Part shown: piece after piece, positions 2,696-43,085 of the stretch
Numbering within the stretch: position 1 is the stretch's first letter
How the letters are laid out: each line of letters starts with the position of its first letter
Origin: Sporocytophaga sp.
GTDB taxonomy: Bacteria > Bacteroidota > Bacteroidia > Cytophagales > Cytophagaceae
Length of the DNA stretch: 64,000 nt
Assembly (NCBI RefSeq): GCF_017745095.1
Contig: NZ_JAGHZZ010000002.1
Location: forward strand, 248,001-312,000
Direction of reading: 5' to 3'
Translations under genes and position numbers: made by a program
The notes under the pieces: model-generated
The model's input: only the letters and a program-made list of their open reading frames with translations
Databases searched by the model: none
Told to the model about the DNA's origin: nothing

Positions 2696-2706
2696 AGATA
2701 TAGGGA

Positions 2707-5700
2707 TTAATCTATTTTTACTTTTAATGGTATACTTAAAATGACAGAGGTCCCCCTTTCAGAAGAATCGAAATTAACCGTTCCCCTGAGGAAATTCACT
2801 CTGGCAATAATATTGTTTAAGCCTCTGCCCTTTTTCCGGGATTTAATAGTCGCCTCAAAGTTAAACCCTTTTCCGTCATCTTCCACAGTTACCACAAGAT
2901 AATCATTCTGATTTACGAACTGAATATCCATATTTTTTGCTCCGGAGTGTTTTAATGCGTTATTGATAAGCTCCTGAACCACCCGGAAGACTTCAATCTC
3001 AAAATCTGTTCGGAATTTTCTGTTTATATTAAATGACTTAAAGTTAATGGTTACTTTACCTGTGCTTGTAATCCTTTTGCAAACAAAGTCCACTGCGAGG
3101 ACAAGTCCATATTGAAGCAAGACATCCGGCATAAGGTTATTAGAGATTGATTTCAACTCCTTAAAGGCATCTTCGAGAAGATTTAATGAGCTTTCCAGAT
3201 ATCTTTCACGGTCATCTACACCACTCTCTTTAAATGCTGTAAGATTTAATTTTAGTGTGGATAACAAATAACCCATTCCGTCATGCAACTCTTCTGCAAT
3301 TCTCTTCCTTTCATATTCCTGGGTTTTGATAACCTCTTTTGAAAGAATTGTTTGCTGAATATTGATCTTCTTAAGCAGATTTTCTCTCTCTCTGAATGCT
3401 GCTATTTTCTTTTCTTCATTCAATGCATTTTCAATTGACACTGCCATCTGACCCGACAGCAGCTGAAGGAATTGAATCCTTTCAGGAGTAAAGGCATTTG
3501 ATATAAGATTATTTTCCAAATATAGAATGCCCATAAGATTGCCGGATTTCAGGATTGGCAGACATACTACTGATTTAAGCTTTTTTTCCTGAATCAGTTC
3601 ATCTGAAGAAAATTTAGGATCCTCTACTGCATTATCTATTACAAGACTATCTCGTGTATGCAATACGTACTGAAAAATAGAATTGGGGATAAGTCCTGAT
3701 TCTTTAAAATCAATACTCTTAAGCACAGTTACAATTGGGTCACTCAGCGCTCCTTCAGCTTCTATATAAAATTCCTCATCTTCATTTTTAAGAACCAGAA
3801 GTCCCTTTTCTGCTCCTGCATTTTCCAGCACTATCCTGATCATCTTTTCCAGAAGTCTTTCTAGGTTAATTTCTCCGGATATAGCAGTTGATGCCTTCAT
3901 GATACTTTTGAGGTCAAAACCTATTTCATCACCAGAAGCTTGCTCCTTTTCGATCATTGTCGAATGATGGCCTCCAGCTGTTTTTCCGAACTTTAAAAAG
4001 GAAGGATATTTATTTTCCAGTTCTTCAACTTTCGCAATCGCTCCCCAGTGATAGTAACTTTCTCTTGCCTTTTGTATGTAAAATTCCCCCTGGACAGGCT
4101 CTTTGCGGAACAGATGGAATTTACCCATCATCTCCAAAGCAAGCGCTTCTTCATGCAGATATTCATACTGACGGGCAAATGAAATCGCTTTTATGTAATT
4201 AGCATGAGCCTTTTCATTTTTACCTTTGACTCTGTTTAACTCTGCCTCTATGATATAATACTTATGCAGGTAGTTCATTGGAGCGCTTTTGGAAAGCTTA
4301 GCAAGCTTCTTCTGATTATTCAGAACGCGGTCAAACATACCTTTTTGTTCCTTTGAACTCTTTCCATTTATCACAGCCAGATAGGCAATAGATTGGTAGA
4401 GATAAAATGAAGGCACCAATGGATTTCCAACGGAGTTGGCGACATATTTTTCTGCTTCGATAGCATATTTGTATGCCTCTTCATATTTACACAGAAAATA
4501 GGAAAGTATAAGCTTACAAATAAAATAATCAAAGGTTGACGACTTCGTGATCGAACCTTCTTCATATGGATTTACCTTTGACTCATCAAAAAATTCGCCG
4601 ACGAGCCATAGTGGATCTTTAGGATTATCGTGCAGATTTTGAGCTGCCTGAGCAAACAAACTATGACTACACAAAGGAGTAGTCTGCTGCAACTGAATGA
4701 TTCTTCTGGTCCTCTCCCTCATAGAACCTATACTGTCTCTCAACTTATTCCCTGATATGAATTCATTGATGGATTGTATAAGCACCGAATATGCAGCGTA
4801 CTCAAAATCTCCCGCCTGCACACCTGCTTTATAGGCTTCTTCGAGAGGGCTTATGGTATTTTTCAGGTGATCTCCCACATGCGCAAGAAATGTATTGGAG
4901 ACCATTCCAACTCTTGCCTTGTGCTGCTCAGGTGGAAAGTATTTCTCCTGTTCACTTGCAAGTCTTACCAGTCTTTTACTGGTTGCATAATCTTCAAATC
5001 CTCCTGAAATGATCAGTGCATAGCTAACAGAAATATATGATGACATTTCACAATTGCCATGTTTCACCATCAGAAGAAATGGCTTTGTAGCAAATAATGG
5101 AAACAAATCAGGAAAAGAAAAATAGGAAGCAGAGGCTACACTTGCAATAATTCTTATGGCAGCAAATACCTTTGGATTATTCATTTTCTTATTCTTCCAA
5201 AGGCTATCAAGGGACTTTGTACCTAAAGCTGCCTTAACTTTAAGAACATCCATCACTACATGTAACTTGTTTGGCTTATCAGGAAATTTAACTCCAAGTA
5301 TTTTTAGAACCTTCAACGCAGTAACAACGGCTTCTTCAACTCTGGACAGGGCTGTATAGGCTCTTATCCTGATTTCATATACCTTTACCTGATCAAGTGT
5401 TATCTCCGTATTATCCAGAACATGTTCAATCCAATGTTCCATTTTATCATAATTCCCGCAGAGATAAGCACTTTCCGCAGCTTCACTATATAATGCCAAG
5501 CTTAAATCATAACTTTCTTTCCAAGAGTTCCCGGATAGCAAGTCTATACCTCGAATCAGATAATCCAAACTTGAGGAGTATGCAGAAGCTCTCTTGGCCT
5601 TTTTACCTGCAAGCACAAAGAGTTCAGCTGCTTGTTTCCTCTCTTGATCCGATCCAAGCGCCTTTATTCCTGATACAAATTGATTGGCAATATCAAATAT

Positions 5701-7800
5701 ATATTCTTCAACTTGATCCCTGGAAAAGTGAGCAAGCAAAACTTTTCCTAACTGAAGGTGAATCTTACCTCTTTCTTCTTCATTGATCAGCGTATATACC
5801 GCCTGCTGTACTTTATCATGTGAGAATTTATAACTTCTTTCTACCGGAATTACTAGATCTTCTATTAACCCGATCTGAATATCCTGTGCCAGATCATGCT
5901 CAGGCTTATTGCAAATGATAGAAAGTAAAAGAAGATCAAAGCGGTTGCCTAGACAAGCAGCAAGCTTAAACACCTTCTGAGTTTCTTCAGGAAGCTTTTG
6001 TATTCGTGCAGCAACAAGATCTACAACATTGTCCGTGATATTGAGTTCTTCCGTACCTTTGATATCAAGCTCCCACTGACGTTTTATAAAATCAAAATTC
6101 AGAAGTTTTTCCTCATATAAAGATTTAAGGAACTGATGTACAAAGAAAGCATTACCCTTGGTTTTATTATATACGAGGTCTACCAGATGATTCTTTTGTG
6201 ATTCAGTAATCCCAAATGATTCATTGATCATACAACTTACATCATCAAAAGAAAGATTTTGAATATGGATAGCTCTTACTGGTATTGATGATTTTATTTC
6301 ATTTACAACTTTGTTTAAAGGATGATATTCCTTCACCTCATTATCTCTCAGCGCCCCTATGATCAGTAGGTTATTTGTTTCTTTACCGGATAAAAGTAAC
6401 TTAAGCAACTCCAATGATGCATTGTCTGCCCATTGAAGATCATCAATAAATATTACAAGTGGGCTATCTTCAGTAGCAATAGATTTAATAAAGTTTCTTG
6501 TAACGAAATTGAACCTATTAAGTGTCTCTGCCGGAGTAAGAGAAGGCACTTCTGGTTGAACACCAATGAGTAGTTCCAGGTTCGGCACCACTTCCGTAAG
6601 TACTTTTCCATTGGCCCCAACTGCCATGCTAATAATGTTTTTCCATTGGGTAAGCCTCTCATGCTTTTCCTTTAGAATAAAATCTACAAATTCTCTAAAT
6701 GCAATAATAAAAGCATAGTAAGGTATATTTTGTTGTATCTGGTTAAATTTCCCTTCTATAAAGCATCCTCTTTTATCAATAACCTTTGTACATATCTGCC
6801 TTATCATTAAAGATTTTCCAACACCTGAGTACCCTGTAACCTGTATGAATCCTGATCTTCCTGCACATACTTCATCAAAAGCTTCCTCAAGTTGTTGAAT
6901 TTCCGCATCCCTACCATAAATCTTCTTTGAGATCTGAAAATTGGAGGAATAGTCTGTGCTGCACAAAGGAAATACCTCTATCGTACCGTTGTTAAGTAAC
7001 TGTTCATAACAATTTTCCAGGTCATCCTTTATACCGCTAGCCGACTGATAACGATCTTCAGGATTTTTACTGATCATTTTACCTATCATGGAAGATAAAA
7101 TATCCGGAACTTCTACTTTCAGCTTAGTGAGCGGTCTGGGACTTTTCGCTATATGGAAATGTATTATCTCCATTGAATCCTCCGAATAAAAGGGATTTAA
7201 TCCCGCAAGCATTTCATAAAATATAACTCCAAGAGAATATATGTCACTACGACTATCGGTCTTCCATTGCACCCTTCCACTCTGCTCTGGAGAAATGTAT
7301 TCAAGTCTGGCTTCACCGGTTACAAAGTTAAGATTGGCAACTTTAGACTTTGAATGAGTTGAGCTGCTAAAGTTTAATATTTTAATATCAAATGTATCAG
7401 GAGAAATAAAAAGATTATAAGGGTTAATAGCATGATGAACAACCCTTCTTTGATGGAGTTCATCCAGAAGACCGCAGATATTTATACTGATCTTAAAAAA
7501 AGAATTTAAATCTATCGGTACTTTTTTTATAAACTCAGAAAGCCTTATTCCTTCAATATCTTCAATAAAAATGCCAGCAAGAGCAGATGTACTTTCCAGA
7601 TGTATATGTCGTGGCACCCCAGGAAATGAAATTTCATTTGCAATAGCAAACTCATGTCTTAATCTTGCAAGACTATTCTGATCACTTGGTGATTTTAATG
7701 CTTTGAGAAGAAAAGTTTCAGAATTAACCGCAACCCGATAAAGTACAGTGCTATAATCAGATTGAATTTCTTCTACTATGCCATAGGATGGAAATTCCAT
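2707..7800 (-). CDS. hybrid Ser/Thr kinase-like / AAA ATPase / GAF / sensor histidine kinase
   Basis: A 1,697-residue signalling protein. In order: an Ser/Thr protein kinase fold (about 1-270); an AAA ATPase with Walker A GYSGVGKS at 323-330 and Walker B LVIFIDDLQWAD; a long helical TPR-like region (about 650-1270); a GAF domain (about 1300-1457); a HisKA_3 dimerisation domain with phosphoacceptor H1506 in EELHDGMG; and a HATPase_c domain to the end. This is the COG3899 multi-domain architecture. Oddity: the kinase-like lobe keeps the ATP lysine (FLLKALK), but the HRD motif reads HHA (A124) and the DFG motif reads NFS (N143), so it looks like a pseudokinase. No membrane segments, so it is cytoplasmic. 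Its likely partner is the LuxR-type regulator 11 bases downstream. The stimulus is unknown. Confidence 0.93.
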   Translation of the reverse strand: MEFPSYGIVEEIQSDYSTVLYRVAVNSETFLLKALKSPSDQNSLARLRHEFAIANEISFPGVPRHIHLESTSALAGIFIEDIEGIRLSEFIKKVPIDLNSFFKISINICGLLDELHQRRVVHHAINPYNLFISPDTFDIKILNFSSSTHSKSKVANLNFVTGEARLEYISPEQSGRVQWKTDSRSDIYSLGVIFYEMLAGLNPFYSEDSMEIIHFHIAKSPRPLTKLKVEVPDILSSMIGKMISKNPEDRYQSASGIKDDLENCYEQLLNNGTIEVFPLCSTDYSSNFQISKKIYGRDAEIQQLEEAFDEVCAGRSGFIQVTGYSGVGKSLMIRQICTKVIDKRGCFIEGKFNQIQQNIPYYAFIIAFREFVDFILKEKHERLTQWKNIISMAVGANGKVLTEVVPNLELLIGVQPEVPSLTPAETLNRFNFVTRNFIKSIATEDSPLVIFIDDLQWADNASLELLKLLLSGKETNNLLIIGALRDNEVKEYHPLNKVVNEIKSSIPVRAIHIQNLSFDDVSCMINESFGITESQKNHLVDLVYNKTKGNAFFVHQFLKSLYEEKLLNFDFIKRQWELDIKGTEELNITDNVVDLVAARIQKLPEETQKVFKLAACLGNRFDLLLLSIICNKPEHDLAQDIQIGLIEDLVIPVERSYKFSHDKVQQAVYTLINEEERGKIHLQLGKVLLAHFSRDQVEEYIFDIANQFVSGIKALGSDQERKQAAELFVLAGKKAKRASAYSSSLDYLIRGIDLLSGNSWKESYDLSLALYSEAAESAYLCGNYDKMEHWIEHVLDNTEITLDQVKVYEIRIRAYTALSRVEEAVVTALKVLKILGVKFPDKPNKLHVVMDVLKVKAALGTKSLDSLWKNKKMNNPKVFAAIRIIASVASASYFSFPDLFPLFATKPFLLMVKHGNCEMSSYISVSYALIISGGFEDYATSKRLVRLASEQEKYFPPEQHKARVGMVSNTFLAHVGDHLKNTISPLEEAYKAGVQAGDFEYAAYSVLIQSINEFISGNKLRDSIGSMRERTRRIIQLQQTTPLCSHSLFAQAAQNLHDNPKDPLWLVGEFFDESKVNPYEEGSITKSSTFDYFICKLILSYFLCKYEEAYKYAIEAEKYVANSVGNPLVPSFYLYQSIAYLAVINGKSSKEQKGMFDRVLNNQKKLAKLSKSAPMNYLHKYYIIEAELNRVKGKNEKAHANYIKAISFARQYEYLHEEALALEMMGKFHLFRKEPVQGEFYIQKARESYYHWGAIAKVEELENKYPSFLKFGKTAGGHHSTMIEKEQASGDEIGFDLKSIMKASTAISGEINLERLLEKMIRIVLENAGAEKGLLVLKNEDEEFYIEAEGALSDPIVTVLKSIDFKESGLIPNSIFQYVLHTRDSLVIDNAVEDPKFSSDELIQEKKLKSVVCLPILKSGNLMGILYLENNLISNAFTPERIQFLQLLSGQMAVSIENALNEEKKIAAFRERENLLKKINIQQTILSKEVIKTQEYERKRIAEELHDGMGYLLSTLKLNLTAFKESGVDDRERYLESSLNLLEDAFKELKSISNNLMPDVLLQYGLVLAVDFVCKRITSTGKVTINFKSFNINRKFRTDFEIEVFRVVQELINNALKHSGAKNMDIQFVNQNDYLVVTVEDDGKGFNFEATIKSRKKGRGLNNIIARVNFLRGTVNFDSSERGTSVILSIPLKVKID

Positions 7801-8046
7801 TTCGAATGAATATTTAGTTTAATACCTGAAGATAAAGTGATAAGACCTGCCTAAGAGATGTTAAATTTATAAAAAATGGAGTAAATAAGCTTTATGTACA
7901 CATAATTAATTCCAGAAAAGTCCTATTTTTAAAATAAAAAATCGGAAATTTACTAAAACCATAGTAAAAATCTACAATTCCTTCCTCATAACCGGTCTGT
8001 TATCTCATAAATAACGCTTAGCGGGGAACCTCTAAAAATATTGAAC

Positions 8047-9294
8047 ATGAAATTCGAAGAATATTCAATTCCACAAGAAATAAAAAAAAGTCTGGAAGAA
8101 GCAGGACTTAAAAGACCAACTGACATTCAGTTCAAGTGTATTCAACCTATCCTGAATAAAGAAGATGTGCTTGCAATAGCACAAACGGGAACTGGTAAAA
8201 CGGCAGCATTTGTAATCCCTGTTCTAACAATACTTCATGAATCCAAATATAAAAACAATAACATCAAGTGTCTTGTAATGGTGCCCACCAGAGAGCTTGC
8301 TGTGCAGATCAACGATGTTTTTGAAAAAATTGGGAAATACACCAAAATAAAATCCTTTGCGCTTTATGGAGGTGTAGAACAGGAAACTCAAATCAGGGAA
8401 TTAGAAGGGAGAATAGATGTACTAATTGCCACACCTGGTAGAATGTTTGATCTTGCACATCAAGGACATTTAAATCTGGAAAACATAGAAATACTGGTTC
8501 TCGACGAAGCAGATCATATGCTCGATCTTGGTTTTATCAAAGATATCAAAGATGTCAAGCAGATGCTTTCCAAAAAGCATCAGACGCTTTTCTTCTCTGC
8601 TACAATTGATAAGAAAATTAAAGAAATTGCTTATTCTCTGGTAAGAAATGCCATAAGGATACAGATCTCACCTAAAGATCCTGTGTCAAAAAAAATAGAC
8701 CATTTTGTAGTCTTTGTTGAAATGGATGATAAGAGGTTTTTTCTTGAAAGAATTATAAAGGATAATTCTCAAAAAAAGATTCTGGCATTTGTAAGAACTA
8801 AGGTGCGTGCCGAACGATTATTAGCCGCAATGGAAAGAGCAGGAATCGCAGCCCTTACCCTTCATGGAGATAAAGAGCAAGAAGACAGACTTAAAGTACT
8901 GAACTTATTTAAGCAGGGAAAATCAAAGATACTTATCGCAACAGATGTGAGCGCGAGAGGTATTGACATTTCTAATGTAGAAATTGTCGTAAACTATGAT
9001 CTTCCTGAACAACCGGAAAATTATGTTCACCGGATCGGAAGGACTGGTCGCGGAAATGACAGAGGAAGGGCAATATCATTCTGCAGCAAAGAAGAACTCT
9101 CATTGCTTGAAACCATTGAAGAATATATAGGAAAGGAAATTACGGTAATGGAGATCAGCAAACAGGACTATATTGAAACTCTTGAATCTACAGAAGAAAA
9201 TAACACAGACTGGAAATCTTTAATGAAGAATGCTGAAGATTTAGATTTTGACAAAAATCATCAGAAAGGAAAGCAATCAAAAAAGAAAAAATAA
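8047..9294 (+). CDS. DEAD-box RNA helicase (RhlE-like)
   Basis: A 415-residue ATP-dependent RNA helicase. I take the ATG at 8047 (MKFEEYSIPQEIKKSL) rather than a TTG two codons earlier. All core motifs are present: Q motif (FEEYSIPQ...PTDIQ), motif I AQTGTGKT, Ia PTRELA, GG, motif II DEAD (VLDEADHMLDLGF), motif III SAT, and helicase-C motifs including ATDVSARGID and HRIGRTGRG. A short lysine-rich tail (KGKQSKKKK) is typical of RhlE/CsdA-like enzymes and helps RNA binding. Role is probably ribosome assembly or RNA turnover, often at low temperature (family knowledge). It is transcribed alone, divergently from the hybrid kinase. Confidence 0.93.
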   Translation: MKFEEYSIPQEIKKSLEEAGLKRPTDIQFKCIQPILNKEDVLAIAQTGTGKTAAFVIPVLTILHESKYKNNNIKCLVMVPTRELAVQINDVFEKIGKYTKIKSFALYGGVEQETQIRELEGRIDVLIATPGRMFDLAHQGHLNLENIEILVLDEADHMLDLGFIKDIKDVKQMLSKKHQTLFFSATIDKKIKEIAYSLVRNAIRIQISPKDPVSKKIDHFVVFVEMDDKRFFLERIIKDNSQKKILAFVRTKVRAERLLAAMERAGIAALTLHGDKEQEDRLKVLNLFKQGKSKILIATDVSARGIDISNVEIVVNYDLPEQPENYVHRIGRTGRGNDRGRAISFCSKEELSLLETIEEYIGKEITVMEISKQDYIETLESTEENNTDWKSLMKNAEDLDFDKNHQKGKQSKKKK

Positions 9295-9395
9295 TTTGAC
9301 AACTTAATTCATCCTAAACTATGTTATATATTGAAATGACTTATAGTTAATCAACTTTAAACTAGAGGTTTCTTACTAGTTAAACGCCAATCAGC

Positions 9396-12197
9396 ATGGA
9401 CAAAAGAAAGAAAACCTTAGACACAAAAATAAAGAGTGAGAAAGGCAGGCCTGCCTTTCCTCAAAGGATTGTCTTTAGAATAAAAGCGGAGGCTGGCGCT
9501 TTCTCTATTTTAAAGACAATACTCACCACCATTTTTAACATATATAATCAGCCTTCAGCCATCATACTGATTGACGATAATTTTAAGGCGGAGAAAGTAC
9601 AAAAACTAAAAAAGTTCCTCCACAGCCATAATCATTCTTTACATAAACTTATCAACCAGTCTTCTTTAAAAGCTGATAAGGTTTACCTTATACCTCCGCA
9701 AAATCAAATTGATATTACTGAAACAACACTACAGATAGCAACTTATCCAGATATCTTTTCCAATGGCAATATATCAATTATTGAGATAGCAGATGGCAAA
9801 ATAAACTTTACGCCATCATCTTATACTCAGATTAAAGAAAGCAGATACAAGATCAGACGATTTAAATTATGTATTTCAAAAATCAACAGGATTAATCTTG
9901 AAGCTAAGAAACAAAAGGGTTCAAATTCATCAGAGACAAATTCAGGCTCCAACCTTATCTCAAGCTATATACTTGATAACATCATCGATTCTACCAACCT
10001 GATTATAGTTGGTATAAGCGAAAACGGAATCATCCAAATCTTTAACCGAGCTGCTGAGGTTACTTCAGGATTTTCAAGGAAAGAAATTATTGGAAAGAAG
10101 TGGTTTGATTATGTAATACCTAAAGATGTTTACAAATATTATGATGATAAATCAAAGTCTACTTTCAACAATTTTGAAAGTTCCATTATCACAAAAAACG
10201 GTGTGGAAAAAGTTATTCACTGGCAGATCAATGAAGTACATTTTGGTGGGGAACTGATGGGTACCCTAGCTCTTGGTATGGACATTTCTGGCCTTATAAA
10301 ATATATTAATAAGCTGAATGAAGGATATGAAAAATTTAAAGCACTCGAGGAAAATAAACTTGTCGGTATTGTAAGAAGATCGCCTTATGGAAAATATATA
10401 TCAGCTAATAATACGTTCTGTCAGCTTTCTGGATATACGCAGAGGGAACTTAAAAGTCTAACGCTTGACGTCCTCACTTATCACGAAGATCTTGATAAAG
10501 AAAGGATATTAATAGAGCAGTTAGTTTCTGGCAATATTCCTACCTACAAAATTGAAAAACGCTTAATAACGAAATCAGGGAAACTTATCTGGGTTGAAGT
10601 GAATGCAGCACCATTCAAAAATCTTTATGGAAAAATTGAATACATCATTGTTATTATTGAAAACATAGATCAAAGAAAAAGAGCAGAATATTCATTAAAA
10701 CAAAATGAAATAAAATACAAAATCCTAGCAGATAACCCCACGATCGGCTTTGCCTGGGCCGACGACAGAGGCTTCCTGATTGAAAGTAATGAAGCTTTCC
10801 ACAAAATGTTAGGTTACAAAAAAAATGAATTACTTGGAAGAAATTTTAGAGACTTCACTTATCCTGATGATGCAAAAAGAGAATATGAATTAATTGAAAA
10901 AATATTTAAAGGAGAGATCAATGAATATCAGATTGAAAAGAGATACATCAATAAAAACAATGAGGTATTCTGGGTTGATCTGAATTTAAGTTCTGTCAGA
11001 AACGAAAAGAATGAAATTCAGTATTTCATTGGGATTACTCAAAATATCGATGCAAGGAAAAAAGTAGAAGAAGCTTTAAAACAAAGTGAAGAACAATATA
11101 GATTCCTCGCCAACACTGTCCCTCAGATATTCTGGAGTGCAGATGAAAATGGTATCGTTAATTTTTTCAACAAAAAATGGAGAGAATTTACTGGGCTATC
11201 CGATGAAGAATCCCTTAATAATGGATGGATATCAGCTTTATATCCTGAAGATGCCGCATCGACTGAAAAAGAATGGTTTGATACTGTTCATCAGGGTGTG
11301 AAATATGAAAGAGAATTGAGGTTAATGAACAAGGAAGGAAAATATAAATGGTTTCTTTCCAAAGCAACACCATTAAAGGATTCCAAAGGAAATATCATTA
11401 AATGGTTCGGAACCTGTATAGATATTCATGACTTAAAAATCGCCATTCAAAATCTTGAAGATGCCTATAAAGAATTAAAAAAAGCCAACGTAGATCTTGA
11501 CAATTTTATTTATACTGCCTCACACGATCTGAAAGCTCCAGTATCAAATATCGAAGGGCTTGTAACATATCTGGATCAACTTCTCAAGGAACTCATTTCT
11601 AAAAACGACCGGAGAGATGAAGTTAACGATCTGATCGAAATGATCTACCAAAGTATAGGCAAATTCAGAAAAACCATTGAAGATCTCTCTGATGTAGCCA
11701 AAGCACAAAGCAATGGTAAATCTGAAGATTTAACAGTAATCAACCTTTATGATGCATTGGAAGAAGCCAAAATTACGCTAATGAATGACCTCAACAACTC
11801 CAAATGTATCATTACCTATCAATTGGATGCCCCTGAAATTGAGTTTTCGATGAAGGATCTCAGAAGCATCTTATACAACCTGCTTAGTAATGCTATTAAG
11901 TACAGATCCAGAGAGAGGGCATGCAAGATTCTGGTTAAAACATACTACCATGGGGACGCAATTATTCTCGAAGTGAAAGATAATGGTATTGGCATCGACC
12001 CTCATAACCAGGAAGGAATGTTTCAGATATTCAGAAGGGTTCATAATCAAAAGCTTGATGTTGAAGGAACAGGAGTCGGGCTGTATATTTTAAAAAGAAT
12101 AATGGAAAATAATAATGGTTCAATACGGGTAGAAAGTGAAATCGATAAGGGAAGTACATTCATACTAACATTTTCTAAACAAAAAAATAACCTGTGA
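9396..12197 (+). CDS. multi-PAS sensor histidine kinase with degenerate CheB-like N-terminus
   Basis: A 933-residue soluble kinase. Residues about 20-150 resemble the CheB methylesterase fold: RIKAEAGAFSILK aligns with the CheB nucleophile motif IGASAGG, and KVYLIPPQNQIDI with VYVIPPNKDLTI. The nucleophile position carries E32 and the usual His of the VQH motif is Asp, so it should be inactive. Four PAS/PAC units follow (about 190-300, 310-430, 435-555, 560-685; PAC endings such as VIIENIDQRKRAE). Then comes a HisKA domain with H710 in SHDLKAP and a HATPase with DNGIGID and GTGVGLYILK. CheB/CheR-PAS-kinase fusions are known; here CheR is missing and CheB is eroded. No regulator gene is adjacent. 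The stop codon lies inside a terminator hairpin. Confidence 0.9.
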   Translation: MDKRKKTLDTKIKSEKGRPAFPQRIVFRIKAEAGAFSILKTILTTIFNIYNQPSAIILIDDNFKAEKVQKLKKFLHSHNHSLHKLINQSSLKADKVYLIPPQNQIDITETTLQIATYPDIFSNGNISIIEIADGKINFTPSSYTQIKESRYKIRRFKLCISKINRINLEAKKQKGSNSSETNSGSNLISSYILDNIIDSTNLIIVGISENGIIQIFNRAAEVTSGFSRKEIIGKKWFDYVIPKDVYKYYDDKSKSTFNNFESSIITKNGVEKVIHWQINEVHFGGELMGTLALGMDISGLIKYINKLNEGYEKFKALEENKLVGIVRRSPYGKYISANNTFCQLSGYTQRELKSLTLDVLTYHEDLDKERILIEQLVSGNIPTYKIEKRLITKSGKLIWVEVNAAPFKNLYGKIEYIIVIIENIDQRKRAEYSLKQNEIKYKILADNPTIGFAWADDRGFLIESNEAFHKMLGYKKNELLGRNFRDFTYPDDAKREYELIEKIFKGEINEYQIEKRYINKNNEVFWVDLNLSSVRNEKNEIQYFIGITQNIDARKKVEEALKQSEEQYRFLANTVPQIFWSADENGIVNFFNKKWREFTGLSDEESLNNGWISALYPEDAASTEKEWFDTVHQGVKYERELRLMNKEGKYKWFLSKATPLKDSKGNIIKWFGTCIDIHDLKIAIQNLEDAYKELKKANVDLDNFIYTASHDLKAPVSNIEGLVTYLDQLLKELISKNDRRDEVNDLIEMIYQSIGKFRKTIEDLSDVAKAQSNGKSEDLTVINLYDALEEAKITLMNDLNNSKCIITYQLDAPEIEFSMKDLRSILYNLLSNAIKYRSRERACKILVKTYYHGDAIILEVKDNGIGIDPHNQEGMFQIFRRVHNQKLDVEGTGVGLYILKRIMENNNGSIRVESEIDKGSTFILTFSKQKNNL

Positions 12198-12214
12198 AAT
12201 TACTTTCACAGGTT
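12189..12214 (-). terminator. terminator of the leftward surface operon, overlapping the kinase stop codon
   Basis: An 11-bp perfect stem (AACCTGTGAAA / TTTCACAGGTT) with a 4-base loop, followed on the minus strand by TATTTTTTT. The T-run and left arm are the last codons of the convergent histidine kinase gene, whose TGA (12195-12197) is in the stem. Confidence 0.85.
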
Positions 12215-12241
12215 ACCAATAAACTTATTACCTAGAGAAAA

Positions 12242-14446
12242 TTATTTTAATTTTATTATCATACCTGCAGTAATAGAATCCTCTTCAAGATTATTAATCC
12301 TTTTCAAATCTTCTACAGAAACCCCATATACTTTTGAAATAGTTTCAAGTGTATCATATGGCCCAACTTTGTGTACTTCAGGTTCGATAATTTCTGTTAC
12401 CTTAATTTCAGTTCTCCTGTTGTACTGATGCTCTTCCTCATTACAATTAATTCCGTCTTTGCAGTGATTCATAATTTTACTTTCACCATAGCCTTTAGCT
12501 ACTATAGCATCAGCAGGAATTCCTTTAGCAACGATGTACTGAACTGCAGCTTCTGCCCTTTTCTGAGAAAGCTTCATATTGTATTCATCTGAATGCCTGC
12601 TGTCAGTGTGCGAAGAAAGTTCCATTTTAATATTCGGATTTTCTTTTAACACTTCCACCAGTTTATCCAGCTCAAGTGCAGCATCATATCGAATCTCAGA
12701 CTTATCGAGATCATAATAAATATTTCGGATTACAAAAAGCTTATCCTGTTCATTAAAAAATACATCTTTAAGAACAATAGGTTTGTCTATTTCGATTTCT
12801 TTTAGTTGAATAGCAATATTCATTGTGTCTGCTGTATTGCACTTTGCCTCTATGGTCGTAGAATGAGAGAAGAAATTATTTTTAGCCAACTTTAGTTCAT
12901 ATTTTTCTCCTGGCTGCAATTTAAAGAAGAATTTACCTTCAGGATTTTTTACTACAGCGCATGGTTCATAAGATCTCAGACAAATCTTCTTTGCAGGCTG
13001 TCCATAAGTTCTTTCATAGGCTATAACATTAGAAGTATCCCCCATCTTATAAAGTTTTACCAATACGTTCTCCAGTGGTTTTTCTGACTTATCAACTAAA
13101 TGTAACGTAAGTCCTGCAAGCACGCAGGTAGGATTGGAAAATTTATATATATCATCTTCGCCTAATCCACCTTCTCTGTTGCTTGAAAAGAAACCTCCGT
13201 TCAACGTAGTATCCAGTGTAATACCAAAGTCATCTTTTGGTGAATTCATTGGGAACATAAGATTTTCAGGTCTGTCCCATTTATCATGTTTCCCGTTTGT
13301 CACGAACATATCAAGTCCGCCAAGACCAGTATGACCGTTGGATGAAAAATAAAGCTTTCCATCAGGAGCAACATAAGGGAATACTTCCTTTGCCGGAGTA
13401 TTTATATATTTACCGGCGTTTTTAGGAAAACTCCATTTTCCATTGGCCTCCATGGTACAGAAGTAAATATCTGTCTGACCAAGAGAACCAGGCATGTCTG
13501 ACACAAAATATATAGTTTTTCCATCCGGAGAAAGGGCTGGATGACCTACTGAATAGTTCAAGACGTTATTATATTCAAAAGGTAATATTGCAGACCATGA
13601 GCCATTTTTCTTTATAGAATAATATATTTCAAGTCTGTTAACAAAGTCAGGGCCTTTCTTTTGGCCATTAATTTTACCTCTGTTACTAACTTTGTTCGTT
13701 CTGGTAAAGTAGATAGTATCTCCTTTCTTTGAAAATGTTGCAGGTCCGTTATGATACATTCCATTTACTCCTTTAAGTTTATTTTTAAACTCAATTTTGA
13801 AGTTTGTATCAATCTCTGCAAATGCCAGGTTTAAGAAAGGTGTTCCAGTCCATCCGTAAATCTGCTTGTTGGAATAATCTGTATCATCAAACTTTCTATC
13901 CGTTGCAAGGATAAGCTTGTTATCAATGAGCTGAGGAGAAAATTCAGAATAAGCAGTATTCACAGATTTTACATTTTCAATCTTAACCTGTACTGGATTA
14001 GACATCCATTCCATTGCCTTTTCACAGTTTTTAGCAAATGCTTCCGCCATCTTTTTTTCAGAAGGAAAGAGTTTACCATACTGGATATATTGTTTTCTTG
14101 CCTCCTGGTAATCTCCGTTGTTTCGAAGTGCCTCAGCATAGAACAATAAATTTGCAGGTTCAACTTTGGAAAATTTAGTCAATAAAACAGCATACCATTT
14201 TTCTGCCTCTTCTGACTTATTCATTTTTCTGTAACAGTCTGCTATCTTCTGTACAATTTCCGCAGACTGCCCTTTCTTTTCTGCAATGACTTCATATTCT
14301 TTAACAGCAAGAGAGTAATTGAATTGATTAAAGTTTTTATCTGCCCTTGCAAGAATGCTCTGCCCCGATGCTGCGTAGCTTTGGATCAGACTATACAATA
14401 GGATAAGTGATCCGGTTCTGATAAGAAGACTCATAATTTTATACAT
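12242..14446 (-). CDS. OmpA-family protein with TPR, PD40 and LysM regions
   Basis: A 734-residue envelope protein with an N-terminal signal (hydrophobic stretch about 5-28, ending near AASGQS). Residues about 30-150 are TPR-like helices (FNQFNYSLAVKEYEVIAEKKGQ). Residues about 170-430 hold WD40-like PD40 repeats (HPALSPDGKTIYFVSDMPG, FPYVAPDGKLYFSSNG). A carboxypeptidase-like beta domain follows. Next is an OmpA peptidoglycan-binding domain (about 570-685; YDLDKSEIR, LSSHTDSRHSDEYN, LSQKRAEAA). The last 45 residues look like a LysM (GPYDTLETISKVYGVSVEDL). This architecture accompanies PorP/SprF proteins and is thought to anchor them to peptidoglycan. The start overlaps the porP-like stop by one base. 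Confidence 0.92.
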   Translation of the reverse strand: MYKIMSLLIRTGSLILLYSLIQSYAASGQSILARADKNFNQFNYSLAVKEYEVIAEKKGQSAEIVQKIADCYRKMNKSEEAEKWYAVLLTKFSKVEPANLLFYAEALRNNGDYQEARKQYIQYGKLFPSEKKMAEAFAKNCEKAMEWMSNPVQVKIENVKSVNTAYSEFSPQLIDNKLILATDRKFDDTDYSNKQIYGWTGTPFLNLAFAEIDTNFKIEFKNKLKGVNGMYHNGPATFSKKGDTIYFTRTNKVSNRGKINGQKKGPDFVNRLEIYYSIKKNGSWSAILPFEYNNVLNYSVGHPALSPDGKTIYFVSDMPGSLGQTDIYFCTMEANGKWSFPKNAGKYINTPAKEVFPYVAPDGKLYFSSNGHTGLGGLDMFVTNGKHDKWDRPENLMFPMNSPKDDFGITLDTTLNGGFFSSNREGGLGEDDIYKFSNPTCVLAGLTLHLVDKSEKPLENVLVKLYKMGDTSNVIAYERTYGQPAKKICLRSYEPCAVVKNPEGKFFFKLQPGEKYELKLAKNNFFSHSTTIEAKCNTADTMNIAIQLKEIEIDKPIVLKDVFFNEQDKLFVIRNIYYDLDKSEIRYDAALELDKLVEVLKENPNIKMELSSHTDSRHSDEYNMKLSQKRAEAAVQYIVAKGIPADAIVAKGYGESKIMNHCKDGINCNEEEHQYNRRTEIKVTEIIEPEVHKVGPYDTLETISKVYGVSVEDLKRINNLEEDSITAGMIIKLK

Positions 14447-15393
14447 TAAAAGTATCTTGGTGTTAACATTTTTGATCCGCCTTTTCTGTTAATATTGTAT
14501 CCCGCAGATATTTCGTGGGTAGCAAAGTCTTTATAACTATTTAAGGAAATATCATAAGAGTATCCCAACCTCAGATTTGGAATGGGGAAGACTTCCGCCA
14601 TAATTACGACTGCATCTTTTGCTGATCCGACATCCTCGACATCATTTTTATTAAAGACTCTAGTTCTGTAAGAGCCTCCGAGCCAAACGATATCATTAAA
14701 AATAAAAAAGACGGAAGCATCACCATTAGTAGGTCCTTTCAAATCTTCCTTAATCATTATACTTGGTCTGATCTTTACTTTTTCAACGATTTGAGAAACG
14801 AAACCAGCTGCTAGAAATAAGTGTTTTCTTTGAGATGGAATCATATCGGATCCTTTACTCATGTTTACCACCACGTTATTCAATGATAAGCCTACAAAGA
14901 ATCTATCGGTATTAAAATAAAGCCCTCCCTGAAAAGCCGCTCTGGTTTTTGCTTCACGCCCAATAGGCACAGCCGGATCGTTTGGCTGATCAGTTGTTAG
15001 CTTATTCCCATCTATACCATAATTAGTGATACCAGCAGCCACTCCCAATGCCAACCTTCCTTTGGTTGATACTTTTATCCTGTAGGCAAATGACCCAAAA
15101 AAAGAATTCTGAAATTGGGCACCTAGTTCATCATGAATAAAATAAGCCCCAACTCCTGCTCTATTCCAGTAAAGCGGCATATCTCCACTCAGTGTTATAG
15201 AGTTTGGCTCTCCATTTACCTTTGACCACTGCTTTCTGTAAAGGCCATTAATATTAATTGCTTCTCTGCTTCCTGCATACGCCGGGTTTATTACTACACC
15301 ATTGAACAGATACTGACTGAATTGTAATGTCTGCTGGGCATGGCAATGAACAGAGAACAAAAGAATTACGGATGTAAATAATTTTCTCATCAC
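14446..15393 (-). CDS. PorP/SprF family type IX secretion membrane protein
   Basis: A 315-residue outer-membrane beta-barrel protein. After a signal peptide (cleavage near VHCHAQQ) comes the PorP/SprF hallmark QTLQFSQYLFNGVVINPAYAGSREAININGLYRKQW. The rest alternates short strands with glycine and aromatic residues to the end. Family members act with one particular type-B CTD cargo protein, attaching it to the cell surface after T9SS export. The gene lies directly between such a cargo gene (15394-17508) and an OmpA-like gene, with no spacing on either side, so one dedicated secretion/anchoring unit is the natural reading. Confidence 0.93.
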   Translation of the reverse strand: MMRKLFTSVILLFSVHCHAQQTLQFSQYLFNGVVINPAYAGSREAININGLYRKQWSKVNGEPNSITLSGDMPLYWNRAGVGAYFIHDELGAQFQNSFFGSFAYRIKVSTKGRLALGVAAGITNYGIDGNKLTTDQPNDPAVPIGREAKTRAAFQGGLYFNTDRFFVGLSLNNVVVNMSKGSDMIPSQRKHLFLAAGFVSQIVEKVKIRPSIMIKEDLKGPTNGDASVFFIFNDIVWLGGSYRTRVFNKNDVEDVGSAKDAVVIMAEVFPIPNLRLGYSYDISLNSYKDFATHEISAGYNINRKGGSKMLTPRYF

Positions 15394-17508
15394 TTATCTT
15401 ACAATGGTTAAATAATTAACGATAGTTTTTTCTGAGTTACAAAACCTGATCTTCAGCTTAAAGTAATAGGTACCTTCATTCAAATTGCTTCCATCCCAGG
15501 TATTTTTATATCCTCTTTTCTTATATACTTCATTACCCCAACGGTTCAAAACAACTAGCTCATTGTCGGGAAAGTATTCTATATTTCTTAACACCCACAC
15601 ATCGTTTATACCATCACTATTAGGAGAAAATGTATTAGGCACATGCACTGAATAAATCGTTTCATTAGACTCAATAGAAGCTTCGCCACTGGCACAATTT
15701 GCCATACTGTTGTTGGCCTTTACAGTAATTGTTCCTTGCTTCATTTCATTGGATTCCAATTCGACAAGGTTCGTACCTTGTCCACTTAAAATTTTCCATC
15801 CATCGGGAACTTTCCATTCATAAGAGCTTGCTCCAGGTACTGGATTTACCATAAATTCAAGCTTTCCGCATGCAGAACTTAAATCCAGAATTGAAGTAGG
15901 ATTTGCAAGCACTTCCACAAAACTGACTTCCAAAGTATCTGTCAATGTATCTTCAGGTAAGCAACCATTCACATTGAAAACTTTAACAGCGTAAAAACCT
16001 GATTCATGAACTGTTATTTCAGGGGTAGTTTCTCCTGTACTCCAGACATAATCACCTTGAAGAAAAGGACTTTTAATAGTTACTTCCTGACCGCACAATG
16101 TAGTATCTTTACCAAGGATAGCTCCTAAGTCATCTCTGATAAATAGTATAACAGTATCGGAAGCGCTACACGAATTACTATCTATTACTTTTGCCCACAC
16201 ATTATTCTCTCCTGTTTTGCAATAAGATATCTGTTGAGAAGTTTCACCTGTACTCCATTGATATATCCCTCCTGCCACTGTTCCGGCGTCAAGAGAAAAA
16301 CATCCGGTACATTTTTTATCAGGGTCAGGTCCGAGGTTTACGACTGGTAATTTATTAAGCGTCACTGTGATAGTATCGGAAGTTGTATCCGCAGGATTAC
16401 ATCCAGGAATATCCGTAATAGAGACATAATACACACCGGAACTTTTCACTATGATTGAATCTGAAGTTTCTCCGGTATTCCAAACTATTTTCCTTCCTAT
16501 ATCAGCGGAGTGAATGATCAAACTATCACCACATAGTGTTATATCATCTCCCAAGGAAGGATCATAACCTTGTTTGATATTTATCTTTATCGTATCTGCA
16601 TCGAAGCAACCATCTGCAGTTGTTACCTTTACACATACACTTGTAAATCCTGTTTTACAGTAATGGATAGTTGAAGTCGTATCTCCTGTACTCCACCAAT
16701 ATTTTGTATTACTAAGATTACCAGCATCAAGCAACACACATCCCCCACATTTTACATCCGGATCAGGTCCAAGATCGACACTTGGAGAACCGCTTAATTT
16801 AACATTAATTGTATCACTTACCGTATCGGCAGGGCTACAACCAGGAATATCAAAAATACTTATGTAATAAATTCCGGACTGTTTCACGACGATAGACTTA
16901 TCCGACTGACCGTTGCTCCACTTGAATGTACCGCCAAAGGAACTTTGAGGAGAAATAGTTATGCTATCTGCACATACTATGGTATCAGCTGATCCGAGAT
17001 CAATACCGTATCCTGGCTTCACTGAGACCTCAATAGTATCAGAAACAGTACATCCAAGATCATTCGTAACTGTAGCCCATACTTTATTCACTCCAATATC
17101 ACAGTATTTTACTACCTGAGAAGAATCTCCAGTACTCCAGAGAACTTTTGCTCCCCCCTGATCCCCTACATCCAGCGTGACACAGCCGCCGCAGCGTGGT
17201 AATGGATCTGATCCTAAATAAACAATTGGACTTTCGAGAAAAATGACCGGTACGGTATCTACACCTATACAACCTACCTTATCGACTATTACTGTAAAAG
17301 TATCTGTTTTGGTAACAGTTATCTGCTTTGTAGTTTCTCCGGTACTCCAGAGGTATGTTGCGTCGGGAACATTTGCGTCAAGAATAATTGGTCCTTTACA
17401 GGGATCCGCTTCTTGCTCTATCACAACTCCGACATTTACCTGCAAACATTGTCCCAGTACATTTGCAGTAATAAATAAACCGGCAAGGATAAAAAGGAGA
17501 TTTTTCAT
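15394..17508 (-). CDS. T9SS type-B cargo surface protein with alternating Ig-like repeats
   Basis: A 704-residue secreted protein. After a signal peptide (ending near LGQC) come seven repeats of roughly 75-90 residues, each with a W-S-T-G-E/D core (YLWSTGETT, VLWSTGDSS, FKWSNGQSD, and so on). Two forms alternate: one with a C-G-G-C pair and a second Tyr-Cys, and one with a Gly-Cys and Pro-Ala-Asp-Thr segment. A PKD/Ig-like unit follows. The end (about 610-704) is a gliding-motility-associated CTD: VPNTFSPNSDGINDVW, LVVLNRWGNEVYKK, WDGSNLNEGTYYFKL. The likely role is a surface adhesin or gliding component exported by T9SS and held by the PorP/SprF-like protein next door. Confidence 0.9.
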   Translation of the reverse strand: MKNLLFILAGLFITANVLGQCLQVNVGVVIEQEADPCKGPIILDANVPDATYLWSTGETTKQITVTKTDTFTVIVDKVGCIGVDTVPVIFLESPIVYLGSDPLPRCGGCVTLDVGDQGGAKVLWSTGDSSQVVKYCDIGVNKVWATVTNDLGCTVSDTIEVSVKPGYGIDLGSADTIVCADSITISPQSSFGGTFKWSNGQSDKSIVVKQSGIYYISIFDIPGCSPADTVSDTINVKLSGSPSVDLGPDPDVKCGGCVLLDAGNLSNTKYWWSTGDTTSTIHYCKTGFTSVCVKVTTADGCFDADTIKINIKQGYDPSLGDDITLCGDSLIIHSADIGRKIVWNTGETSDSIIVKSSGVYYVSITDIPGCNPADTTSDTITVTLNKLPVVNLGPDPDKKCTGCFSLDAGTVAGGIYQWSTGETSQQISYCKTGENNVWAKVIDSNSCSASDTVILFIRDDLGAILGKDTTLCGQEVTIKSPFLQGDYVWSTGETTPEITVHESGFYAVKVFNVNGCLPEDTLTDTLEVSFVEVLANPTSILDLSSACGKLEFMVNPVPGASSYEWKVPDGWKILSGQGTNLVELESNEMKQGTITVKANNSMANCASGEASIESNETIYSVHVPNTFSPNSDGINDVWVLRNIEYFPDNELVVLNRWGNEVYKKRGYKNTWDGSNLNEGTYYFKLKIRFCNSEKTIVNYLTIVR

Positions 17509-41887: not shown

Positions 41888-42649
41888 TTAATTTAGTTCA
41901 ATAATATCCGAAATGAAATTTGAATATTCATCTTTCATTGGAAGGTCCATATCTACCTTTAACTGTCGTCTTGGGGAAATCACCTGCTCATTTGTCTTGG
42001 GATTAAAGCCTTCTTTATTGATTATTTCCCAATAAAACCCAATCCCCCTCTTCTGCCATACTGGCAAATCATTGAAATTTATATTATAAGAAAATAATAA
42101 TTCATTCTTTTCGGCAACACTTATACCTTCTATCCTTTTAGTAGCTACGCTCTTAGAAAAATTATCTTTTCTCAGCCTCCAGTAACAGTGGGCATTCAAA
42201 GAGTTTCTATAAGCATCTTCATTTCTCCATCTGAAATAATCTATCACCAGTTGTTCATTTGGTAACTCGCAGATCCTACAATCGAACGCTGCAAGATCAC
42301 CAAGAAGCAGAGAAAATTTAGCACTTGCTTCACCTGCAAGAATTGAATTATACTTTCTGTGTTTACGTGAAAACAAAGATTCGTTTAAATCAAACAGCAG
42401 CGATATTTCATCACTTTCGGTATATCCGTAAACAACCTTAAAGCCACAGTTCATAAGGTGCTTCACCGTTTCAATCATATAATCTCTAAACCTCACATCA
42501 AAAGGAGCTTCAAATTGATGTACTTCTTTGGTAAGTTTGGTAAAACCTCTTCCGTCAATTCTGGCAACCATGTAGATGCCAGGCAATACGCAAACATCAT
42601 GAGTAGTTTCATAAACTCTCATCTTACTATCCAATTCATCAAACTTCAT
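41888..42649 (-). CDS. Thg1-like protein (3'-to-5' nucleotidyltransferase, tRNA His guanylyltransferase family)
   Basis: A 253-residue member of the Thg1 superfamily, polymerases that add nucleotides to the 5' end of RNA. The metal-binding aspartates are in place: D32 in ARIDGRGFTKL and D80/E81 in YTESDEISLLF, equivalent to yeast Thg1 D29 and D76/E77. The HINNLYN motif of true eukaryotic Thg1 is absent (the region reads RNSLNAHCYWRLRKDN), as in bacterial and archaeal Thg1-like proteins that repair 5'-truncated tRNAs. Its start overlaps by 11 bases the stop of a PNK-like kinase gene, so the two are co-translated. Only some bacteria carry this family. Confidence 0.9.
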   Translation of the reverse strand: MKFDELDSKMRVYETTHDVCVLPGIYMVARIDGRGFTKLTKEVHQFEAPFDVRFRDYMIETVKHLMNCGFKVVYGYTESDEISLLFDLNESLFSRKHRKYNSILAGEASAKFSLLLGDLAAFDCRICELPNEQLVIDYFRWRNEDAYRNSLNAHCYWRLRKDNFSKSVATKRIEGISVAEKNELLFSYNINFNDLPVWQKRGIGFYWEIINKEGFNPKTNEQVISPRRQLKVDMDLPMKDEYSNFISDIIELN

Positions 42650-43085
42650 CTGACCAATCTTTTATTATAAATTCACCATTAATAATCTCAACACAATACA
42701 ACTCATCAAAGCCTTCATCAAGTAAAGGTAGTTCAAACTTTTTCAAAGTGGCTTTTATACCTACCTCAGGCACACACTCCTTCCCATCTCTGCAATTGTT
42801 CCTTTCCAGAGCATCTTTCAAGTTTGTTTTGAAATAATAACCTATGACCTTATAGTTTCTTTCTTTTGACATTGATATATACTTCTCTCTTTCTAACCTT
42901 GTAGGATTAGTATTTTCAACCACAAAAGGCTGTTGCGTTTTCAAACAGACCTCCAGAAAAAGCCTTTCTCTGTTTCTTGTTCTGAGCAAATCCATTGAAA
43001 TGCGGACATGCGTTTTAAAAAACTTTTCCTTGAAAAAAGTGGATTTTCCAGAAGCCTGAATACCACAAAATATAACTGCTTCCAT
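42639..43085 (-). CDS. polynucleotide-kinase-like P-loop ATPase (AAA_33)
   Basis: A 148-residue protein with Walker A GIQASGKST (8-16), the acceptor-binding Asp motif RISMDLLRTR, the segment VVENTNPTRLEREKYI (lid arginines), and FKTNLKDALERNNCRDG. This is the kinase fold of T4 Pnk and bacterial Pnkp, which phosphorylates 5'-OH ends. It overlaps the Thg1-like gene by 11 bases and is the first gene of the pair. I infer it supplies the 5'-phosphate that the Thg1-like enzyme needs. The substrate could be something else, since AAA_33 includes other small-molecule kinases. Confidence 0.8.
   Translation of the reverse strand: MEAVIFCGIQASGKSTFFKEKFFKTHVRISMDLLRTRNRERLFLEVCLKTQQPFVVENTNPTRLEREKYISMSKERNYKVIGYYFKTNLKDALERNNCRDGKECVPEVGIKATLKKFELPLLDEGFDELYCVEIINGEFIIKDWSDEV

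Follow-up and report, generated by a model that had tools for sequence, protein, structure and literature searches.

In the 64,000-nucleotide stretch of the Sporocytophaga sp. genome analysed here (contig NZ_JAGHZZ010000002.1, positions 248,001 to 312,000; hereafter the window), the gene for a polynucleotide-kinase-like P-loop kinase overlaps that of a Thg1-like protein (TLP), a member of the 3'-5' RNA polymerase family. The pair clearly belongs to a known, computationally predicted two-enzyme module for RNA 5'-end repair, whose chemistry we infer. We propose, with a probability of about 0.62, that the two genes form a co-translated cassette for the repair of damaged 5' ends of RNA. Kinase action followed by polymerase action is the best-supported reading because of the polynucleotide 5'-kinase (PNK)-type fold of the first protein, the TLP family of the second, their near-constant pairing across genomes and the RNA-repair or RNA-damage genes found next to them in some of these. 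The window locus is an ordinary, though clear, example of the pair; the interest lies more in the neighbours of its relatives and in a lysine missing from the TLP. Loci, genomes and contigs are designated below with the prefixes L, G and C.

Two overlapping genes for a PNK-like kinase and a TLP

All features described in this section lie on the minus strand. The kinase gene (42639..43085, 148 aa) is located upstream of the TLP gene (41888..42649, 253 aa), and its final 11 bases, which end the kinase with -DEV-stop, are the initial 11 bases of the TLP open reading frame (ORF), which starts with MKFD (42639..42649). The initial annotation had described this overlap, and the ORFs bear out its coordinates. 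The pair is flanked by a converging gene, coding for a protein with a Gly-rich tail, on one side and by a diverging 1083-aa ORF on the other. Both flanking proteins adjoin the pair in two genomes of the same genus (G002 and G003), and the diverging one only does so in a third (G001). As these flanking proteins are common to same-genus genomes, the pair is old in the genus.

The kinase matches Pfam AAA_33 above the curated cut-off (E 4.4e-10). Its translation contains the P-loop GIQASGKST that had been noted initially (residues 8-16, 43038..43064), and G8, G13 and K14 are present in all 75 aligned kinases. The equally invariant D32 (42990..42992) aligns with the Asp residue of 'NRDTL' in mammalian PNKP, and we take it to be the general base. 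Throughout these 75 proteins, D32 is followed by K, N, H or R at position 35 and by K or R at position 39; for comparison, the catalytic Asp and substrate-binding Arg residues are presumably D35 and R38 in T4 Pnk and D396 and R403 in PNKP. The AlphaFold2 model of the kinase has a mean predicted local distance difference test score (pLDDT) of 94. The solved folds closest to the model are those of mammalian PNKP, of fungal kinases complexed with GDP and of Clostridium thermocellum Pnkp; PNKP ranks top in both Foldseek and VIA-align 2, and also first by sequence. The P-loop and the modelled PNK fold are features that the protein shares with polynucleotide 5'-kinases. It does not reach the equivalog cut-offs of the Pnkp and PNKP families (TIGR04075, 24.0 vs 750 bits; TIGR01663, 39.5 vs 502.8 bits).

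The second protein matches both Pfam Thg1 (E 1.4e-31, 109.5 bits for a cut-off of 29.2) and Thg1C (E 7.1e-14, 52.5 bits for a cut-off of 26.3). The nearest solved chain is 5axk (E 3.6e-26), which we take to be the TLP of Methanosarcina acetivorans, followed by 3otb, 7cv1 and 4kgk. Its metal-binding residues D32 (42554..42556) and D80-E81 (42407..42412) match the corresponding D and DE positions in the solved Thg1 and TLP chains, and are conserved in all 81 genomic sequences of the alignment (window included) and in 11/11 viral relatives. The HINNLYN anticodon-recognition motif of eukaryotic-type Thg1 is not present in the window protein, which has YRNSLNA (residues 147-153, 42191..42211) at the corresponding position in an alignment with human THG1; the protein is therefore a TLP and not Thg1 proper. 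Intact carboxylates and a missing HINNLYN motif, both pointed out in the initial annotation, were thus confirmed by alignment with solved chains.

In an alignment anchored by the following proline, A48 of the TLP (42506..42508) corresponds to K43 of the Bacillus thuringiensis TLP, which positions ATP. Replacement of K43 by Ala was reported to decrease adenylylation approximately 10-fold and to leave guanylylation unchanged (PMC3701042). At the A48 position, the 81 genomic sequences have A (62), S (9), R (4), K (4) or T (2), and the lysine is thus missing from 77/81 TLPs of the clade; it is found in 6/11 viral sequences. The four genomic sequences with a Lys residue are those of L072, L100, L104 and L109, two of which have no kinase and one of which has a kinase detached by 32 bases; Ala is also found at this position in four kinase-less loci. 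Because the ATP-positioning lysine is missing from most of the clade, the kinase-linked TLPs are predicted to activate 5' ends with GTP.

Conservation and spread of the pair

A single scan of genome contigs found 438 TLP relatives, and the best 80 loci were analysed. A kinase gene is directly upstream of the TLP gene in 74 of these 80, a proportion that may be inflated as the scan patterns were drawn from seven TLPs, all paired with kinases, with the MKF start as one of the patterns, and paired or overlapping cases may thus have been favoured. The kinase is also present at 15 of the 16 loci without the MKF pattern. The kinases of L030 and L064 were partly read (68 and 117 aa). The overlap is of 11 bases in 65 of the 74 pairs, 14 in five and 4 in two, and gaps of 4 and 32 bases are found once each. 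Gene chains were established for 74 of the 80 loci, and the other six (L069, L073, L083, L086, L087 and L101), in which a longer antisense ORF took the place of the TLP, were counted for overlap only. The initial annotation had called for such a survey of adjacency, and the outcome shows that the pairing is not unique to the source genome; the recurrence of the pair with an equal overlap in many genomes argues that the arrangement is not due to chance.

The kinase is not directly upstream in L067, L092, L093, L104, L109 and L096, the last of which has one ~2.7 kb upstream. In L104, the kinase-less TLP gene overlaps the 5' end of a gene for HsdM, the first of an apparent type I restriction operon (8001-16242). 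Among the viral loci, 2/11 have a kinase beside the TLP, though more divergent kinases could escape detection. In INPHARED, TLP-like matches were found in 120 of 50,697 phage records, all at <60% identity to the window TLP, and many of the 25 matches listed are from large phages.

The 74 pairs span seven named phyla, namely Bacteroidota (52), Pseudomonadota (7), Myxococcota (4), Cyanobacteriota (3), Bacillota (3), Ignavibacteriota (1) and Acidobacteriota (1), with three pairs unplaced. The Ignavibacteriota pair is nearly identical in sequence to that of a Bacteroidota-labelled bin (L050). Rampant recent transfer between phyla finds weak support, as a quick TLP tree requires nine changes of phylum for a minimum of seven and a mean of 21.6 after shuffling. 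Being close to the minimum, the TLPs are therefore mostly sorted by phylum.

Surveys of defined sets of genomes gave a similar picture. Among 59 relatives of the source genome, nine have a TLP match, of which seven are of the window type, with an adjacent kinase in all seven; the TLPs of G001 and G003 are interrupted and that of G049 is cut by a contig end. In G001 (L004, L012) and G003 (L006, L011, L013), the TLP frame is broken and the overlapping kinase is intact, which may reflect either decay or assembly errors. The other two relatives, G041 and G056, have a different type of TLP; upstream of it is a Macro gene, and two genes downstream one that is RtcB-like. The Macro and a partial RtcB match were checked for G041. 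This bacterial TLP type without the kinase was seen in L009 and L010 (the loci of G041 and G056) and in L029 (G397), which also has an RtcB-like gene. Across 395 genomes of the phylum, any Thg1 was found in only five. Four, the source genome included, have the window type with an overlapping kinase, and the Thg1 gene of the fifth adjoins an RtcB-like gene, as judged by reading. This rarity points to patchy loss or to transfer within phyla.

In the family of G447, a Tenacibaculum (L080), 4/249 genomes have a match; the three full-length ones all have a kinase, and the fourth (G636) has a 28-residue TLP start behind an intact kinase. In the latter (L206), where the contig stretch ends, these 28 residues run on into an unrelated frame of 528 aa. 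Within the genus of G447, the TLP is present in 3/97 genomes, with a kinase beside all three. The order of G448, a Dysgonomonas (L078), has matches in 4/295 genomes, two with a kinase, one (G1067) without a kinase within its 3.75-kb locus and one of another TLP type, as judged by reading. With every genome counted a single time and G636 excluded, a kinase is next to the window-type TLP in 17/18 genomes, or in 14/15 without G000, G447 and G448, on which the sets were centred; these genomes and those of the 80 loci are in part the same. In one surveyed genome (G483, L205), the pair comes after an ORF of 111 aa (2699-3034) whose product, as judged by reading, resembles a tRNA-binding protein of the CsaA type.

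The pairwise identities of the kinases correlate with those of the TLPs (r 0.716 for 75 pairs, including the window and two viral pairs), and none of 1000 label permutations matched this value, with a maximum of 0.18. Shared descent alone contributes to this correlation. Outside Bacteroidota and Ignavibacteriota, 15 of 21 loci (three unplaced ones included) have a Shine-Dalgarno-like word near the 3' end of the kinase sequence, at 4-18 bases from the start of the TLP; the rate in control windows from these kinase genes is 13.8%. A Shine-Dalgarno sequence for the TLP was rejected in Bacteroidota, as the word is present in 2/53 Bacteroidota and Ignavibacteriota loci vs 11.1% of control windows. 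The MKFD start is retained even without an overlapping kinase, and the overlap is thus partly forced. Its constant length of 11 bases is therefore best read, from these sequences, as a single ancestral gene arrangement that would have been retained.

Neighbouring genes and the tRNA-His question

Flanks of up to 8 kb were examined with chosen queries and by reading; the resulting neighbour counts are leads without a matched background. In 5/80 loci, the pair is found in a histidine biosynthesis (his) operon, which represents three changes on the TLP tree. The arrangement is hisG-hisD-pair-hisC, one ORF and hisB in L068 and L080 (Tenacibaculum), hisG-hisD, other genes, then pair-hisC-hisB in L078 (Dysgonomonas), hisH-hisA-pair-hisF, one ORF and hisIE in L048, and pair-hisF, one ORF and hisIE in L030. 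The his identities rest on Pfam for ten proteins (hisC and hisH only to general families) and on tblastn for the remainder. In the three positive genomes of the 97 in the genus of G447, the pair invariably lies between hisD and hisC.

These operons raise the possibility that the pair mainly restores a lost 5'-phosphorylated G-1 of tRNA-His, keeping histidyl-tRNA synthetase supplied, with the his-operon lineages tying expression to histidine starvation. The three separate places on the TLP tree and the ability of C73 to template G-1 favour this idea. Nevertheless, the his queries found no his gene at the other 75 loci or in the window, TLPs act on many tRNAs in vitro, and the his-operon count stands without a background rate of operon insertion. 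Moreover, the tRNA-His gene of the source genome (C33:195995) encodes both a G at -1 and C73; this result concerns the C33 gene, with two weaker tRNA-His genes on C23 left outside it. Both nucleotides are also encoded in 12/12 other genomes, whose tRNA-His genes were located with a DNA query and which include G447, G448 and G449, with the his-operon arrangement, and G450 (L030). First-time addition of G-1 was thus rejected as the task of the TLP in these genomes, where repair of G-1 could be needed but its first addition is not. We therefore consider a role centred on tRNA-His unlikely, yet it cannot yet be separated from general 5'-end repair.

Editing of mismatched tRNA 5' ends is unsupported, as ARAGORN predicts paired acceptor stems for the tRNA loci of the source genome, with two exceptions: position 1 of an initiator-type tRNA-Met, and what seems to be a partial copy of a tRNA-Arg gene with an intact one next to it. 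This check covers less than all 47 RF00005 matches, as identical genes were counted once and some of the weakest loci were unnamed. Several peculiarities of tRNA genes were also observed. In seven of the 12 other genomes (L176, L177, L178, L180, L181, L182 and L189), ARAGORN shows one or two mismatches at positions 5 and 6 of the tRNA-His acceptor stem. In G001 (L173, ~680-1500), degenerate, tandem partial copies of tRNA-His are found beside the intact gene, with an apparent GIY-YIG-type ORF between. A cluster of weak tRNA matches (two His, two Pro and one Gln) is present on a 51.8-kb contig of the source genome, perhaps a mobile element (C23:8400-8848, L155).

Genes for RNA repair or RNA damage are found in the flanks of 12/80 loci (L055, L063, L074, L077, L084, L089, L090, L092-L095 and L109). 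On the damage side, a small ORF and a MazF gene precede the pair in L090, and MazF precedes the TLP in L092 and in the near-identical L093, with PemK Pfam matches in L090 and L092 and identification by sequence in L093. We read the small ORFs beside MazF as putative antitoxins. Cleavage by MazF leaves 5'-OH ends. A weak, 13-residue kinase match (E 0.003), a possible kinase remnant, lies between MazF and TLP in L092 and L093. Genes for PtuA and PtuB precede the pair in L063 (PADLOC, 4e-92 and 7e-39) and the kinase-less TLP in L109 (7e-107 and 7e-38). Septu was reported to cut tRNA-Tyr in the variable loop (PMC13096335), and a retron's PtuAB to deplete tRNA-Tyr, with that of another retron likely not targeting tRNA according to the authors (PMC11555353). 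The pair itself was rejected as a defence system of its own, since neither the kinase nor the TLP of the window matches any PADLOC family at E 0.001.

On the repair side, L094 (Tolypothrix) has Hen1-pair-Pnkp on a single strand, L074 has Hen1-Pnkp at some distance downstream of the pair, and L089 a convergent Pnkp gene near it. L095 has a Hen1 fragment upstream, L077 has genes for two RNA ligases and for an HD-AAA_33 protein downstream of the pair, a Macro gene is located downstream in L055, and L084 has a distant RtcB-like match. Outside the 80 loci, a Deinococcus plasmid (L208) carries Hen1 and RlaP genes farther along from the pair, and RlaP follows the TLP in L207, as it does in L092. The counts leave out apparent relatives of Pnkp in L092 and L103, which resemble metallophosphoesterases.

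These neighbours relate to another explanation, put forward as an alternative in an earlier comparative study (PMC2904730), in which kinase and TLP would activate 5' ends for joining to a 3'-OH, with either the TLP itself or a ligase making the joint, i.e. sealing rather than filling. It is consistent with the presence, close to some pairs, of Hen1/Pnkp, RNA ligase or RtcB-like genes and with the location of same-order TLPs of the other type near Macro and RtcB-like genes. However, the ligase queries detected Pnkp, RNA ligase or RtcB-like genes in just 5/80 loci (L074, L077, L084, L089 and L094), and the TLP retains both its Thg1C domain and its polymerase carboxylates, which makes sealing as the main function improbable.

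In the source genome itself, RtcB is encoded at two loci. A search for Hen1 yielded, on contig C6, an N-terminal part only, directly after which comes a C-terminal part of the ligase domain of Pnkp. Two RlaP nucleotidyltransferase genes precede these parts (L213, 1586-4978), which are what is left of a Hen1-Pnkp repair operon. Close to it is a weak tRNA match (36 bits; 6187-6259, minus strand) with a long acceptor-like stem of unexceptional stability (shuffle z -1.08), possibly a tRNA-like RNA of a repair system.

Proposed function and comparison with known systems

From gene structure, protein families, the predicted fold, the conserved pair with its overlap and the neighbours, we infer the following chemical steps and a tRNA substrate. 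The upstream kinase would phosphorylate 5'-OH ends, such as those generated by metal-independent RNases, as its family and fold suggest. The TLP would then use a purine NTP, which in this clade is probably GTP given the missing lysine, to activate the 5'-monophosphate. As reported for other TLPs, it would add nucleotides in the 3'-to-5' direction, copying the opposite strand until the helix is flush, typically at a tRNA acceptor stem. Ends that need joining may be passed on to ligases encoded elsewhere, a step proposed because Hen1/Pnkp or RNA ligases are found beside some pairs and two RtcB loci are present in the source genome.

The initial annotation had proposed that the kinase restores the 5'-phosphate and that the TLP fills in. 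The PNK fold, TLP family and near-constant pairing agree with this, yet the idea had already been published in 2010 by Anantharaman, Iyer and Aravind (PMC2904730). That work described a PNK-family P-loop kinase gene as the most persistent neighbour of bacterial Thg1 genes, noted that subsets of the neighbourhoods also include genes for Macro proteins and RNA ligases, and proposed both that the kinase makes the 5'-phosphate substrate and that the system repairs RNA. Designating nicked tRNA as the substrate was too wide: a TLP takes the opposite strand as its template, which suits it to restoring a trimmed acceptor stem or another recessed 5' end within a helix, and not to mending a cut in a loop. 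That the kinase acts instead on a nucleotide, a toxin-like small-molecule substrate or a charged tRNA, and that the genes are merely co-inherited, is very improbable: AAA_33 is a broad family, and tRNA(Sec) kinase and zeta toxin outscore T4 Pnk in the fold comparison, but mammalian PNKP and C. thermocellum Pnkp are in the top fold group, PNKP ranks first by sequence, the pairing is nearly constant, and kinase and TLP identities agree.

The repair reading may tentatively be extended. The pair could be a portable, antidote-like repair module wired to a source of RNA damage, either in line with a cutter as built-in repair of self-inflicted damage (L063 and L090) or in a his operon, where it would be induced by the loss of G-1 from tRNA-His; its TLP might have switched from ATP- to GTP-dependent activation. 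On this reading, loss of chargeable tRNA-His through G-1 removal would itself induce the repair genes. A 2019 review considers the biological substrates of TLPs from bacteria and archaea not entirely settled (PMC6471195). The near-constant kinase partner, the embedded TLP start and the hisD/hisC, MazF, PtuAB, Hen1/Pnkp and RNA ligase neighbours name concrete substrates, stresses and laboratory-accessible genera.

Literature word searches, which left out most subscription papers, found no paper joining Thg1 with MazF or with Septu, nor one joining tRNA-His guanylyltransferase, histidine biosynthesis and operon. The phrase 'histidine biosynthesis' was met together with Thg1 solely within a reference, and none of the matches listed combined Hen1 and Thg1. 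The his-operon sites, the Septu and MazF neighbours and the Hen1/Pnkp or RNA ligase neighbours were not met in these few searches, and they may be known already.

With respect to known enzymes, the window kinase differs from the kinase domains of mammalian PNKP and C. thermocellum Pnkp in being a stand-alone, 148-aa domain without a phosphatase or ligase domain. Its partner is, like the B. thuringiensis protein (4KGK, PMC3701042), a bacterial TLP with metal-binding carboxylates, but the latter is farther from it (E 3.2e-21) than the archaeal 5axk and has K43 in place of A48. The 5axk TLP, its nearest solved relative, also keeps the lysine at that position. The Hen1-Pnkp RNA repair operon likewise deploys a 5' kinase in RNA repair; it adjoins the pair in L094 and L074, and Hen1 does so in L208, unlike in the window, whose source genome has only the partial copies on contig C6. 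Lastly, the main text of the 2010 study, to which our comparison was confined, does not contain the words 'overlap', 'histidine' or 'Hen1'; the window locus is one more case of the Thg1-PNK neighbourhood described there, in which the gene for a kinase of the PNK family adjoins that for a bacterial Thg1 (PMC2904730).
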